In this document: in pieces, positions 27,501-59,200 of the stretch
Layout of the letters: each line of letters opens with the position of its first letter
Position numbering within the stretch: position 1 is the stretch's first letter
Assembly: GCA_964036195.1 (NCBI GenBank)
Contig: OZ038451.1
Coordinates: forward strand, 1,240,001 to 1,304,000
Direction: 5' to 3'
DNA length: 64,000 bases
Source of the DNA: Sphaerolaimus hirsutus
Taxonomy: Eukaryota > Nematoda > Chromadorea > Monhysterida > Sphaerolaimidae
Notes under the pieces: model-generated
Databases searched by the model: none
What the model saw: the letters and a program-made list of their open reading frames with translations, nothing else
Told to the model about the DNA's origin: nothing
Translations under genes and position numbers: made by a program

Positions 27501-29426
27501 TATGTTCTTATGAGTGCCATACACCCAGATGTGTGTGAGATACTTCTGGTTGGGGCTATATAAACTGCCGGCTAATATAATTGAGCTTTTGATGGCATCT
27601 GGTTCTGGATTACATCAATTCTATCTGGTGTGGAATTGCCCCCAGATGTTTACTACATGCACCCTGGGGGGACCCCTGTGGCTGCTCTGATGTAGCCTCA
27701 GGGGCACCCCCTGTAAAAATAATAATATTTTCATCAGGCCAATATAAATGAGCTTTTTTGAGCTAAGTGAAACCTTTATCATTGGGGGTTGCCTTTGTGT
27801 GACATATACACCTTGATGTGGTGCATCTTTTACCACCCCTCCCCCCTCCCCGAAACCCCCTCACAAAAAGTTGTTGTTGAACAAAGGAACAAACTTTTTT
27901 CATCTGAAACATCATTTGGGTTTGTGTCCAACTGCCCCAGACACATCTGCTACACTGTCTGCAATGGCCTCGTGCCCTCGTGCAAAGGTTTCACTTAGCA
28001 CCAGTTGTGAAAAGAAATGATTTCTGCATGTCAAAAGGATTTGTTCAGGTAGTCTTTGATAGCTTGTCAGAGAACCTGAATCCTGTGACACAAAATAAAG
28101 GTTGGTTTTCTTATTGAGTGATTCTTTTGCACCACCTGTGAACTTTTCCAGTTCTTTTACAATATAAAAATGCCAATTTTGTTCAAAATTTCGAAAAAGC
28201 TCATTTATATTGGCCAAATGAAAATTGTATTGTTTTTACGAAACGCTACATTGCCCTGTGGCTACATCAGAGCAGCCACAGGGGAGATAGAAATGATGGA
28301 ATCCAGATGTCATTAAAAGCTCAATTATTTATATTAGCCAGTTCTTTATAGCAACTCAGCAGCAGCCAGGCACTAAGAATATTAAAAAAAACTTGTGCTG
28401 AACTTGAGTAAGAAGCAGTTTACACAGTACCCGTTAGAGTCGATCACACAAAAGGCAGGGAAATCACCTGCAGTAACATTTTGATCTGGCAGCATGCCAA
28501 GCAGATCGTCCGCAGAGGTTGTGTTTTCCTTTTGTGGAGCAGCCATCAACAGTGTGTGGTCAGAATTGTCGCTGGACATCAAATCACCACCAGGTGCCAA
28601 TCCCAAGCCCTGTAAAGTGTAAAGTAAAGTGTCAAATGTAAGTCAAATGCAAAGTGAAGTGTCAATTGTCATGCAAAGTTCAGTAATAAAATCTTTTCTT
28701 TTTTGTTTTGATTGACACTTTACTTGCATTTGACTTTATATTTGACACTTTACTTTACACTTTACAGGGCTTGGGACTGCCCCCTGGTGCTGACAGCGGA
28801 GAGTCAAGTTCAGTTTCGTTATCCTGCCCTGAAGCAATCCTCAGTGCAGTGTTTACATCATCATCCACTGTGATGGTCATTGTTTTAAATGGTATACCGC
28901 GTGGAGCACATACTTTGCACAAAATCCTACCATAGTTTTATGAATAAAATCTTGTGCTACATTTCGTAATAAAATATTCCACAGTAAAAAAGAAAAAATA
29001 TTATTATTATTGGTGAAAAACTGTAAATTATTGGTTTATCATTCAGATGGGCTATGGTAGGTTTCCATGCGAAGTGTGATGCCCGGCAAGTATATTTTCA
29101 TAGTTTACCTAACGATTGAATATACCGAGTCGAGTGCATACTTTGCACAGAATCCTACCATAACTTAATGAATAAAATCTTGTGATAAATTTTGTAACCC
29201 TACCATAGTAAAAACGAAATACCTATTATTGTTTAACTGTATAATTTTTGGTCCACTATTCAGGTGGTGTTATGGTAGGTTTCCATGTAAAGTGTGATGT
29301 CCGCCCAGTATATGTAAAAGCAGAAATGTCACCTGCACTGGCACTGGACACATGGAGCACATAGCTGACACACAGCGCAGAGCACAGTAATTTCCTGAAT
29401 GTTATGCTCCAGTGACGAGGCAGCAT
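21323..29426 (-). CDS. Secreted ankyrin-repeat protein gene, multi-exon
   Basis: The gene is assembled from splice borders on the minus strand. A 94-bp first exon (29426-29333) encodes a basic start and a hydrophobic core (KLLCSALCVSYVLHV) ending near SSASA, which reads as a signal peptide. It ends in phase 1. It is followed by an apparently damaged ankyrin exon, eight intact ankyrin exons of 204-210 bp, each phase 1 in and phase 1 out, and a terminal exon with a TAG stop. Each exon encodes two ankyrin repeats with TALMWAA, LLLSAPGADVLHRD and TLLMAAAFGGNA motifs and ends NVNAG. Ankyrin repeats are usually intracellular binding scaffolds; an N-terminal signal peptide is unusual. Acceptors read CAG|TGGATGA and donors GCAG|GTGA or GTAA. 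The function is unknown. Confidence 0.75.
21714..21961. mobile_element. MITE family H in ankyrin intron
   Basis: TATACTCCGGTTACTTTACA and its partner CACGTACGCCGAGTATA bound a 248-bp element with TA at each side. The related intronic sequences near 29060-29085 and 29270-29300 (GGTAGGTTTCCATG followed by AAGTGTGATG) lack it and serve as paralogous empty sites. Other copies are at 46174-46424 and 53941-54189. Confidence 0.8.
22026..22232 (-). CDS. Ankyrin gene exon (207 bp)
   Basis: Symmetric phase-1 exon with acceptor CACAG|TGGATG and donor GCAG|GTGATG. It encodes two ankyrin repeats and is almost identical in its second half to the exon at 26556-26762, pointing to recent exon duplication. 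Confidence 0.85.
22463..23134. mobile_element. MITE family B (TTTCCGTTTTCC-rich)
   Basis: Starts TAGGGTGTCAATG and ends TTTTTGAGACCCTA, diverged forms of the family B termini TAGGGTGTCAA/TTGACACCCTA. The interior is a pyrimidine-rich TTTCCGTTTTCTGG array on one strand, which creates a long Phe/Ser-rich open frame that is not a gene. Its right edge is abutted by a family C palindrome. Confidence 0.75.
23133..23673. mobile_element. Giant palindromic MITE family C
   Basis: The left arm (GGGAATTAGAGCTCAGCG onward, including AGCATGATCCACACTCG in inverse) and the right arm are near-perfect inverted copies of about 255 bp with a loop of only about 15 bp near 23400 (TGCTGCTTGCAATA). TA is present at both outer edges. 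The 5-kb copy represents essentially one arm unit. Confidence 0.85.
23828..24037 (-). CDS. Ankyrin gene exon (210 bp)
   Basis: Phase-1 symmetric exon with acceptor TGCAG|TGGATG and donor GCAG|GTGATT. It is one codon longer than most, with a GAGDNTAVV variant in the second repeat and LLLPAPGADV in the first. Confidence 0.82.
24090..24982. mobile_element. MITE family N, interrupted by family E
   Basis: TACCGTATATCCTTGAATAA at the left and CTTATTCAAGGATATAAGGTA at the right are inverted and TA-bounded. The interior is split by the TA-flanked family E element at 24286-24734. It lies in an intron of the ankyrin gene. Confidence 0.75.
24286..24734. mobile_element. MITE family E nested in family N
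   Basis: TACCGTATTTCCTCAAAATA to TTTCGAGGAAATACGGTA with TA borders. It contains the GGGGTGATTGTTTCATAGTG motif on both arms and is closely related to 25513-25944. Confidence 0.8.
25006..25212 (-). CDS. Ankyrin gene exon (207 bp)
   Basis: Acceptor TGCAG|TGAATG and donor GCAG|GTGATG, phase 1 in and out. It encodes NALMCAAAEGNKDAF and NTLLMKAVGGGN repeats ending DNINAG. Confidence 0.83.
25270..25473 (-). CDS. Ankyrin gene exon (204 bp)
   Basis: Acceptor ACAG|TTGATATG and donor GCAG|GTGAAT. The loop of the first repeat lacks the proline (ISAGADV instead of SAPGADV), which accounts for the missing codon. Phase 1 symmetric. Confidence 0.83.
25513..25944. mobile_element. MITE family E in ankyrin intron
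   Basis: TA-bounded, starting CCGTATTTCCTCGAAATACC and ending TTTCGAGGAAATACGG, with arm-wide G/C runs. Nearly the same core as 24286-24734. Confidence 0.82.
25983..26189 (-). CDS. Ankyrin gene exon (207 bp)
   Basis: Acceptor ATTATAG|AACGATGG and donor GCAG|GTGATC. Phase 1 symmetric. The repeat starts ERWDGTTALTIAAN rather than VDDDGRTALMWAA, making it the most diverged intact exon of the set. Confidence 0.8.
26278..26484 (-). CDS. Ankyrin gene exon (207 bp)
   Basis: Acceptor CACAG|TGGATGATG and donor GCAG|GTGACAT. It encodes GRTALMWAARKGHKDAF and YTLLMEAVIGGNA. Phase 1 symmetric. Confidence 0.85.
26556..26762 (-). CDS. Ankyrin gene exon (207 bp)
   Basis: Acceptor CACAG|TGGATGATG and donor GCAG|GTGATG. 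Its second half is essentially identical to 22026-22232. Phase 1 symmetric. Confidence 0.85.
26811..27199. mobile_element. MITE family N in ankyrin intron
   Basis: CACCATATATCCTCGAATAT at the left and ATTCAAGGATATATGGTA at the right form inverted termini; the core is AT-rich and decayed. Confidence 0.6.
27232..27435 (-). CDS. Ankyrin gene exon (204 bp)
   Basis: Acceptor TTGCAG|TGGATGAC and donor GCAG|GTAATG. It encodes NALIRAALEGDEHAF and RTLLMAAAFGGNA. Phase 1 symmetric; one codon short in the inter-repeat loop (HRDKGRT). Confidence 0.84.
27560..28350. mobile_element. Large inverted-repeat element (family J)
   Basis: Arms 27565-27765 and 28190-28345 are inverted: GGCTAATATAATTGAGCTTT pairs with AAAGCTCAATTATTTATATT, and CTGTGGCTGCTCTGATGTAG pairs with CTACATCAGAGCAGCCACAG. 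It occupies the intron between the first intact ankyrin exon and the damaged one. Confidence 0.7.
28468..28867 (-). pseudogene. Ankyrin exon split by a family D transposon
   Basis: An ankyrin exon begins at acceptor CACAG|TGGATGATG (28867) and ends at donor GCAG|GTGATT (28468), as its neighbours do, but the reading frame is cut inside the SAPGAD loop by a 185-bp family D MITE (28596-28780). Reading straight through meets a stop inside the element. Here the copy of the target duplication that would supply the 3' splice site reads CACCTG, not CACCAG, so clean removal as an intron looks unlikely. Because exons are phase-symmetric, skipping this exon would preserve frame. Confidence 0.7.
28596..28780. 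mobile_element. MITE family D inside ankyrin exon
   Basis: Termini GCCAATCCCAAGCCCTG and CAGGGCTTGGGACTGC are inverted, and arms carry GTAAAGTGTAAAGTAAAGTG. The 8-bp flanks CACCAGGT and CCCCTGGT (6 of 8 identical) match the target CACCWGGT expected from the intact ankyrin exons (GCACCAGGTGCTGA). Confidence 0.85.
29333..29426 (-). CDS. Ankyrin gene first coding exon, signal peptide
   Basis: ATG at 29426-29424 is the only ATG in frame. The 31 codons give a basic N-terminus, a hydrophobic core and small residues SSASA before donor GCAG|GTGACA. The exon ends in phase 1, matching the phase-1 acceptors of the ankyrin exons. The link to them is inferred from phase, strand and shared intron sequence. 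Confidence 0.65.
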
Positions 29427-56211: not shown

Positions 56212-59200
56212 CTGGGGCCGTCCCAGACCCTGTAAAAAACCTGTAGACTGTCAAATTCCATGCAAAATGCCATGTGTCATGCAGAGTGTCAAAAGTCATG
56301 TAAAAAAAACCCTTTAAAAAGCCAAATGTCATGCTTAACATTTACAAATAAAATTAAACTAAAGTAACGTTTTTAAACTTTAAGTAAATAAACAACTTCT
56401 ATTTTTATATCATTTTTATAATTTCAGATTTTTGTTTGCGATTTTTAATGTCTTTTTCGATATTTTACATGGTCTTTTATATGACATTTGACACTTTGAC
56501 ATTTGATAGGGTTTTTTACCTCACATTTTACAGGGAATTTACAGGTCTTTCACAAGGTCTGGGATGGCACCTGGCCGTAATAGCAGCCGGCGCCGTTCAT
56601 GCAGTAGATTCCAGATTCCACATAACCGCTGGGACATCCTGAGTGTGGTTTGGTCGTTGGTCCCAGACCCCCCAGGCAACCAAGAATTAAATTACAATAC
56701 CCCTGTTTGTTTCCATTACAAATGTGTGTATGGTTGGTATGTTGGCGTCCAGGCGCCAGTTCCGCAAGTGGAAAAGTTAAGAGTTAAAACTTAAGAGTTG
56801 AGTAAAATGACAAATGACAAGTTATGAGAAAATTTAAGAGTTAAGAGTTGAGTAAAACGACAAATGATTTTACTCAACTCTTAACTTATAACTTATCATT
56901 TATCATTTTACTCAACTCTTAACCCTTCACTCTTAACTTTTCCACTTGCGGAACCGGCACATGGTTGTGAATTCAGTCAAAAAACTAATGTGAAAATTCA
57001 GCAGTTGAAGTGACAAGTCAAGTTGTCAATGGATGTTACATATTTACAACATTTCTTGTCACTAAAAAATTATATGTCACTTGACTCGCCACGTTTCTAT
57101 TCCCTTCAATCCACTATTCAATTCACTTCACTTCTATCCCACTCTAGTTCCCGAAAAACACATATATAATACTTTAGGCACAACCAGAAACACAGCTTAC
57201 TGACAACTCGCTGCCAGTTTGCAGATACCAAGCTGACATGCAGTTCTTTGGACCCACACACACTAGTTGACATCGGAAATAACTGTGAACTGAATGTCAA
57301 CTAAATATTTAACACAAATATTTTTTAAGCATCACTCTTAACAGAAACTATGAAAATTAAGTGTCACAATATAAAATAAACTATCGTATTACCTCTAATT
57401 AACCCCCCCCCCCCCCCTCAAAATGGGCTGGGGAAATAATACCCCCGCCCTCGAAACCCCCCCCCCCCCGGAATGGTGTACATCATGTATGCAATGTACC
57501 GATGTATTTATTACTGCTAATTTGTATTGCAGCTACACATAAGACTAGTCACAATCGATGTTCACAAGTGGCATTGTTTACACGTTGTCCCGATCTCGTT
57601 TCTACATGTCAGCACGTTTGTGAATCGCTTGAGTGTTTCCCACTACTGGCGCATAAACCAGCGGAGACAAGTGGCACGAACGATTGTAGGTGGGGCTGGT
57701 GAGCATCCTGCAGCACACGCCGAAGGTGGGGTCGCAGCCCTGCTGGGGGCCGCACTGCGAGGGGGCGCCGTCGGCCGACGGGCTGCAGCGCTGCGTCAAC
57801 CCATCCGCCCCCGTCAGCGGCTCCCCCATCGTCCCGATGGTGCACTGCGCTCCTGGCACGGGGCCAACTTTGCATTATACAGTTGATCACCTATTTTTTG
57901 CATTTTGAAAGATGTATGCGCAGTGAAGAAACGAGGTCTTTAGAAAATGTGACGATCCAATTACATCAATATTCACAACTCGACTGATAAAAAATTCCTC
58001 GAAAAATAGCTGCTGAAACAAACTGACTGATACACCTGCCCTGTACATCGATGTAACCCCTCTGACATCCACAAACACCAGCAAAGCAGCCCATGGCAGT
58101 GCCCAGACTCGTCTGCAGCAGCAAACCCATCATTTGCTGGTCCAAGTTGGCATTGAGCCTGCTCGCAGTGGAATGTCTGCGCAGTCCCGCACCTCGTAAA
58201 GTGTTAAGCCAAGTGCCAAATGCCGTGTAAAATGCCAATCAAAACAAAATTATCACAGAAATTTTGAAGCTTTGCATGCATGACATTTGACCAATTTGTA
58301 TGACATTTTCCTTGACATTTGACACTTGCGTGTGCACTTGGCAGAGTGCGGGACTGGCACCTGGCGACGCACTGGGCGGCCATGTCGCAGGGCTCGCCCG
58401 CGCCGGAGATGGGGTAGCACGTGCCGCTGATGTACAGGTCCGTGGGGTTGACGCACGGCGCCGGGCAGCAGATCTGCGTGGCCACTTTCCATTGCATCAT
58501 GCAATTTGCATGGCACATGGCACATTAGCAGCAGTGCATTGTGATGGAATGAACCCATGTAAATGACATTTTTGCCACAAACTGTTGTGTTACTCACGCC
58601 ATTCTTTCAACTAAAAAAAGCAATGGAGGCATCAGTTGTATAACTCACACTACTATCAGCAACATAAATACATTCACACTAGACATTCTCAACATTTAAG
58701 CTTATTTACAGTGTATGACAAACCCATGTGCACAAAGGAATGAAGAAGTGTGATTTTTGTGAAAATAATCTGTTGTGAAGAATGTGCACAGTGCACACAC
58801 TATGACAAGTCATTTCCACTTCTATCTAAGTGAGCTCACAATTGAAAATTAGCAATCGATAAAACGATGACACCAATACTAATACCAAAACATCTACATA
58901 CTCAAATGCACACAAAAGTCCAAGCGCACACTTCTGCAATGCTGCTCACCTCCATGGCAGTGGTCAGCTTGTCTCTGTGGCAGAAGTAGCCGAAGGCGGG
59001 GCAGTGCTTGCAGCCGAAGTTGGGGCCGACGCTGCTGCTGTGCGGGTTGCCCACCGGGCACTTGGGCGCCGGCTGCGAGCGGGCTGTCGGGCAGCACACA
59101 CCCTGCAGTCACAGTAAAAAATGGTGGTGTGATGCGTCGTGAAGCATGCTGGATGCGCGTTAAGCGGCCTCTGTGAAAACACTTCCACACGCTTCAACAC

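Follow-up and report, generated by a model that had tools for sequence, protein, structure and literature searches.

The locus examined here raises the question of whether a transposon copy can be, from its first base to its last, an intron, and whether the family to which it belongs makes introns elsewhere in the same genome. The window (the whole 64,000-nucleotide stretch of Sphaerolaimus hirsutus DNA that was analysed) contains a 184-nt element on the minus strand, inside a gene for an EB module. A reading made from the letters of the window, referred to below as the sequence-only reading, had described this copy as exactly an intron and its family, named family D, as an introner family. 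Introners, as surveyed by Gozashti et al. (2022, PMC9860276), are DNA-transposon-like families that carry terminal inverted repeats (TIRs), duplicate a short target and give rise to introns within exons. For the genome analysed, COX1 from the 14,754-bp mitochondrial contig gave at least 120 hits; the best named ones among those listed, from insects, other arthropods and a priapulid, reach about 70% identity, and two metagenome hits reach 91 and 82%.

The element at 58177..58360

The size of 184 bp, the position at 58177..58360 and the minus strand given in the sequence-only reading match the sequence as read. On that strand, and with a slash marking each border here and below, the boundaries are CAG/GTGCCAGTCCCGCAC...GTGCGGGACTGCG-CAG/ACATT, in the wider context ...CAGTGCGTCGCCAG/GTGCCAGTCCCGCAC...GAGGTGCGGGACTGCGCAG/ACATTCC..., and the proposed intron runs from GTGCC to GCGCAG. 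The flanks that had been named, CGCCAG and ACATT, are present and contain a CAG on both sides. By the pattern of the family, these two are the likely copies of a 3-bp target duplication: the left copy (58361..58363, minus strand) would form the final exon bases ahead of the GT, and the right copy (58177..58179, minus strand) would be the source of the 3' AG.

The inverted ends hold for the inner part of the termini. The left TIR, GTGCCAGTCCCGCAC, occupies 58346..58360 on the minus strand, and the right TIR, CAGTCCCGCAC, occupies 58182..58192 on the plus strand; CAGTCCCGCAC is exact at both ends (58182-58192 on the plus strand, 58346-58356 on the minus strand), and the 62-nt arms are 71% complementary. 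However, the right end is actually GCGCAGTCCC, so that the two ends have CAGTCCCGCAC in common and unlike outer bases, GTGC on one side and, on the other, CG in this copy and often CCCC across the family. The 184-nt element folds as a single long hairpin (MFE -69.8 kcal/mol, z -5.35), which is more stable than all of 200 shuffles.

A repeat family with CWG as its likely target

Searched genome-wide, the 13-mer GCCAGTCCCGCAC has 626 exact occurrences, versus 1 for the reversed control, and therefore marks a repeat family rather than chance. A DNA search of the animal's own genome with the 184-nt element returned, with 40 of its 966 candidates scored, at least 54 alignments spread over 40 places, one of which is the element's own. 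Exact CWGGTGCCAGTCCC ends number 3,200 in the genome. Exact left ends with CAG (CAGGTGCCAGTCCC) number 1,706, with 3 for the reversed control, and those with CTG (CTGGTGCCAGTCCC) number 1,494, with 0 for the reversed control; the excess of CAG over CTG is modest (z 3.7).

An automatic rule that needs 60 nt of flank yielded 93 non-redundant two-armed copies from the window and from fetched loci. The fetched loci were taken from the DNA search and from the majority, though not the whole, of the first 100 places in the 13-mer list. GTGC and GGGG are the most frequent outer ends among the copies, and the family pattern, written with GTGC first, is CWG/GTGC-CAGTCCC...GGGACTG-CCCC-CWG. At a fixed offset in 87 copies, CWG was found on both sides in 26; the triplets were equal in 18 of these (CAG twice in 12, CTG twice in 6) and mixed in 8. 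A second count, by a search that prefers equal triplets, gave 27 matched pairs among 35. Judged from these patterns, CWG is likely to be the target duplication of the family, with the mixed-triplet copies unexplained; the two-thirds share of equal triplets is a rather weak proof of duplication.

Two groups of copies were seen within short distances of each other. Six copies (L110-L115, C2:10.44-10.75 Mb) have identical printed flanks, each with CTG on both sides, and occupy six places within 0.3 Mb; they are apparently non-coding. Three related gene copies (L056, L103 and L104, C2:6.41-7.25 Mb) have one element junction in common, with a GC donor; the stretch GADTKPPVALRALRRL... beside the shared junction is kept in all three, with one base fewer at the junction in L104.

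Some Harbinger elements make CWG duplications, and PIF/Harbinger is the likely superfamily here. DDE_Tnp_4 (PF13359) is abundant genome-wide, with at least 163 matches (150 of 306 candidates scored), none of them tied to the ends of the family. Many of these matches have near-identical score and length and four in-frame TGA codons, perhaps introns, in the matched span.

Copies inside coding sequence

We judge 17 of the 93 copies to lie in coding sequence, six of which end in TG (L028, L059, L071, L038, L058 and L087). Peptides joined across the element and picked by eye were sent to Pfam in two sets of 10 (16 loci, four sent twice) plus the window, all of them read with the GT end first. Together with the blind set described below, these gave nine loci with a relevant Pfam match across the junction, all GT-first. 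In the CAG class these are L106 (ALIX_LYPXL_bnd, 1.8e-21), the KsgA/TFB1M-like L054 (RrnaAD, 6.3e-9), L095 (GBBH-like_N, 1.2e-4) and the EB copy of the window at 58177-58360. The CTG class contains L028, an SLC4 gene (HCO3_cotransp, 4e-29), L059, an SLC23 gene (Xan_ur_permease, 2.9e-12), L071, a peptide GPCR (7tm_1, 3.2e-6, below the Pfam cut-off), and L038, a DB module with CCG before and CTG at the end of the element (DB, 0.0015, below the cut-off and lost when the peptide was cut to 64 residues). L036 (element at 1501-1693) is mixed: a CTG precedes the element and a CAG ends it, which makes it GT-AG; its PAP2 match of 3.5e-5 is below the cut-off and spreads 64 residues over 38 profile positions.

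A further eight copies (L022, L042, L056, L058, L060, L073, L087 and the window copy at 56212-56570) appear coding from their frames and, in most cases, their codon scores, and none of their peptides had a significant Pfam match; the label "zinc finger" for L058 is a reading of motifs. The second window copy (56212..56570, minus strand, 359 nt) has the form CAG/GTGCCATCCC...GGCCCCAG/ and appears introner-like, lying in frame in a Cys-rich, coding-like stretch near the EB gene.

The Pfam-supported copies, with borders placed by their frames, are alike up to both ends, CWG/GTGC...C-rich-CWG (CCG before in L038), and in the GT-AG cases tried, removal at the element ends gave an exact, in-frame canonical join in six of six. 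The interruption is missing in homologues: PDB alignments are gap-free at the junction for five loci (SLC4, SLC23, GPCR, KsgA-like and ALIX). Against PDB, the GBBH-like peptide had a weak match (0.009, best row a designed protein), and the PAP2-like peptide had none. Within the genome, five other SLC23 loci run through the insertion point without a break, five other SLC4 loci do likewise (one with a stop), and two weak EB paralogues (L011 and L013) pass it unbroken with a short loop there; the introns are therefore absent from related genes.

These results also bear on the idea that the MITE landed merely in introns already present. Many copies do lie in non-coding DNA, which speaks for such landings. 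In the eight Pfam-supported loci besides EB, however, the coding frame reaches the element from either side and no other intron sequence remains, and the SLC23 and SLC4 paralogues have no intron at that place. We regard pre-existing introns as very improbable.

Orientation of the copies

A blind set was built from 66 copies of unambiguous orientation by taking, in each sense of each copy, the longest frame that spanned the junction with no fewer than 18 residues to either side. At E values up to 0.01, six of 41 GT-first peptides matched Pfam (seven families, one peptide having two), versus none of 39 GG-first peptides; six versus zero has a one-sided chance of 1/64. SLC23 and EB are missing from the blind matches, since in both a longer frame than the coding one was taken. 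In a smaller, earlier set of six GG-first peptides, none was above the Pfam cut-off. A codon score of 6 or more was reached by 15 GT-first and five GG-first readings among the 66 copies. In four of the five GG-first cases the score shadows a GT-first score on the opposite strand that is higher; the fifth case, L073, was read as GT-first. Over all 66 copies the difference in codon score between orientations is weak (Wilcoxon p 0.07); the score is tuned to GC-rich genes, and it missed the AT-rich PAP2 locus L036.

One window copy may break the orientation rule. It spans 28598-28779, has CAATCCCAAGCCCTGTA arms and mixed CAG and CTG triplets, and lies GG-first in a minus-strand frame of about 120 open codons, for which no Pfam match was found. 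By our estimate, one such GG-first open frame could come from chance, given 93 copies and six frames.

The copies in coding sequence might instead be unspliced insertions, recent or damaging (null alleles or pseudogenes), that are in frame by chance. Arm preservation is higher in 16 coding-sequence copies than in the 77 others (p 0.0002), which fits youth (or constraint). Against this, the Pfam-supported copies are GT-first, six versus zero in the blind test, the frames are intact on each side of the element, and among the genome loci compared no element-free second allele was found for SLC23 or SLC4. We consider unspliced insertions improbable as the explanation.

The assignment to introners is thus well supported as a reading of the DNA: conserved domains (ALIX, rRNA dimethylase, GBBH and EB) are split at the element ends, GT-first, with homologues or paralogues unbroken. 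The accompanying idea, that a target duplication supplies splice-site bases, is supported for the CAG copies, in which the element gives the 5' GT and the duplicated CAG gives the 3' AG.

A proposed model of intron gain

The proposed mechanism begins with a non-autonomous DNA transposon (MITE) family that would insert at CWG and duplicate it, probably moved by a PIF/Harbinger-type transposase. The ends of the MITE would be asymmetric, one beginning with GTGC and the other finishing with CCCC. With CAG on the sense strand and the GTGC end on the upstream side, the gene would read CAG/GTGC...CCCCCAG/, from which the spliceosome could excise precisely the element and one CAG, leaving the message as it was before the insertion. 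The copy at 58177-58360 would be such an intron, gained in an EB-module gene, with its 3' border presumably at the element end. We hold with considerable confidence that a MITE family inserts at CWG and that this copy is one such intron in an EB-module gene.

The 3' border in the EB gene

The upstream coding exon (58361..58473, minus strand) encodes the first part of the EB module by frame and EB profile; its start was read by eye and has a 3' splice-like CACGCAG before it. The downstream coding exon (58036..58176, minus strand) encodes the remainder by frame, EB profile and codon score and is followed by GTGTAT, its end also being read by eye. Cutting out the 184-nt element joins the coding flanks in frame, in phase 2, as had been claimed; a splice at the element end would join GTCGCCAG to ACATTCC. 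The claim that one EB-like domain is rejoined stands in part. With the 184 nt removed, the match to the Pfam EB profile (PF01683) reaches 32 bits, above the cut-off of 24.3, but in two pieces; it becomes unbroken (52/52 positions, 39.7 bits) only when 69 nt more are removed, as a 253-nt intron.

These 69 nt, the first of the downstream exon (58108-58176, minus strand), are either coding, as the codon signal favours, or an intron tail, as Pfam favours. If they are a tail, the intron starts at the GT of the element and ends 69 nt downstream at GACGAG/TCTGGG, and the MITE is the first three quarters of it. The higher, unbroken profile match and the short loop of both EB paralogues at that place argue for this longer intron. 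However, read in the right frame, the 69 nt resemble coding sequence: a codon score as high occurs in 0.28% of 2,471 open 66-mers from the window at comparable GC and in 42 of 7,518 stop-free shuffles. The CAG on both sides of the element also implies that GCCAGACATT, the exon and tail joined, was continuous before the insertion, and inspection by eye found no fitting older 5' GT for an earlier intron there. Because of the codon signal, our preference moved from the 253-nt intron back to the element end. The longer intron now seems rather unlikely, and the 3' border probably coincides with the end of the element. That 58177-58360 is exactly an intron is thus plausible, and to us likely, with the in-frame phase-2 join and the coding-like 69 nt on its side and the EB profile preferring a 3' border 69 nt further on.

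Copies that end in TG

The sequence-only reading missed one part of the splice ends. The likely target is CWG, so six of the 17 copies judged to be coding end in TG and not in AG. The splice dinucleotides at the borders would be GT-AG for the CAG copies and L036, and GT-TG, which is non-canonical, for the six CTG copies. These six lie in the SLC4 and SLC23 genes, a GPCR, a DB module and two genes without a significant Pfam match, all GT-first, and exact removal of a CTG copy that begins with GT needs a TG end.

We enumerated the GT-AG alternatives for the six copies, with donors from -30 to +70 and acceptors from -70 to +45 of the ends. None in this range gives the exact join, and those listed alter the protein in all six: L028 has one that adds six residues, L087 has one of the same length with residues altered, and in the other four the listed alternatives change residues or length. 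In the CTG copies an AG of the TTTTACAG type precedes the end by 19 nt in five and by 18 nt in L028; used with the first GT of the element, this AG shifts the frame except in L028. If the CTG copies were unspliceable like the GG-first ones, the chance of GT-first in four of four Pfam-supported copies would be 0.012, and in six of six 0.0014, for a set of six that was not picked blind.

Other results speak against the use of TG. The ordinary splice sites in two U2AF1-like genes, read by eye, are AG at all six acceptors and GT at all five donors, and L036, for which the left triplet predicts TG, ends in AG. L036 may be a TG intron mutated to AG; it suggests that AG is favoured, and we therefore lowered our confidence in the GT-TG reading very slightly. 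The arms of the six CTG copies are slightly better preserved than those of ten CAG copies (0.87 vs 0.815, p 0.055), as expected of young insertions not yet purged, and this also counts against TG use. That one transposon with a CWG target gives rise to both GT-AG and GT-TG introns, both surviving in coding sequence, is a tentative reading to which we give somewhat less than an even chance. Were it correct, the long TIR hairpin and the upstream AG, at 18-19 nt, would enable the spliceosome to take TG as the main 3' site, perhaps aided by a second, divergent U2AF1-like gene.

The two U2AF1-like genes are located at C14:3.03 Mb (with C720 as a likely haplotig) and C16:15.18 Mb. One is conserved, with 71-81% identity to the human sequence in the exons covered, and the other has a divergent central stretch (45%). 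This pair brings to mind the duplicated U2AF that has been reported in Fritillaria.

Comparison with known systems

Introners rank among the main sources proposed for new introns, and the available text of the 2022 survey places them in two groups only among animals and land plants, both of them animals (PMC9860276). With thousands of copies and a rule as simple as a CWG target and an upstream GTGC end, such a family would open intron gain in an animal to direct testing. Should it be true that the CTG copies splice at TG, they would provide a natural experiment, with matched elements, on the limits to which the 3' AG rule can relax. We found no published CWG/Harbinger introners in a literature search of limited reach into subscription journals, which is no proof of absence.

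Non-autonomous Tourist MITEs of PIF/Harbinger have TIRs and a 3-bp target with a central W, as the family described here probably does; however, their target is TWA rather than CWG (PMC12595863, as far as its available text goes), and no transposase is tied to the family here. The introner elements of Amoebophrya have widely varying splice motifs with RNA-seq support (PMC7789003, available text). They share with our putative introns the hairpin form, direct and inverted repeats and, for the CTG copies, non-GT-AG ends, whereas here the GT is constant and only the 3' dinucleotide would vary. In the animal Fritillaria borealis, according to the portion of PMC13326754 at hand, fewer than 10% of introns are GT/AG, U2AF is duplicated, and introner transposons with weak splice sites are a possible source. 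Non-canonical 3' ends in an animal would be common to both cases, putatively so here; in contrast, the ordinary introns checked here are GT-AG.

Human TG 3' splice sites depend on an AG within 28 nt and, in the available text of PMC2374985, occur only as alternatives to a nearby AG. The TTTTACAG-type AG lies 18-19 nt upstream, inside those 28 nt, an agreement in distance that is suggestive; unlike the human sites, TG would be the main site in the CTG copies.

The closest likeness is to the introners of Fig. 2C in PMC9860276, whose 5' splice site is carried by the element and whose 3' site comes from the insertion site. The CAG class would likewise bring its 5' site and take its 3' site from the target. 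The family differs from the introners in the available text of that paper in its CWG target, its asymmetric outer ends, its animal host and the coding copies that would need a TG 3' end; rare GC and GA 5' sites are reported there, and no TG 3' sites were seen. On the features tested, we place the CAG class among introners, as one that would work like those of Fig. 2C, and the TG class would be the new part.
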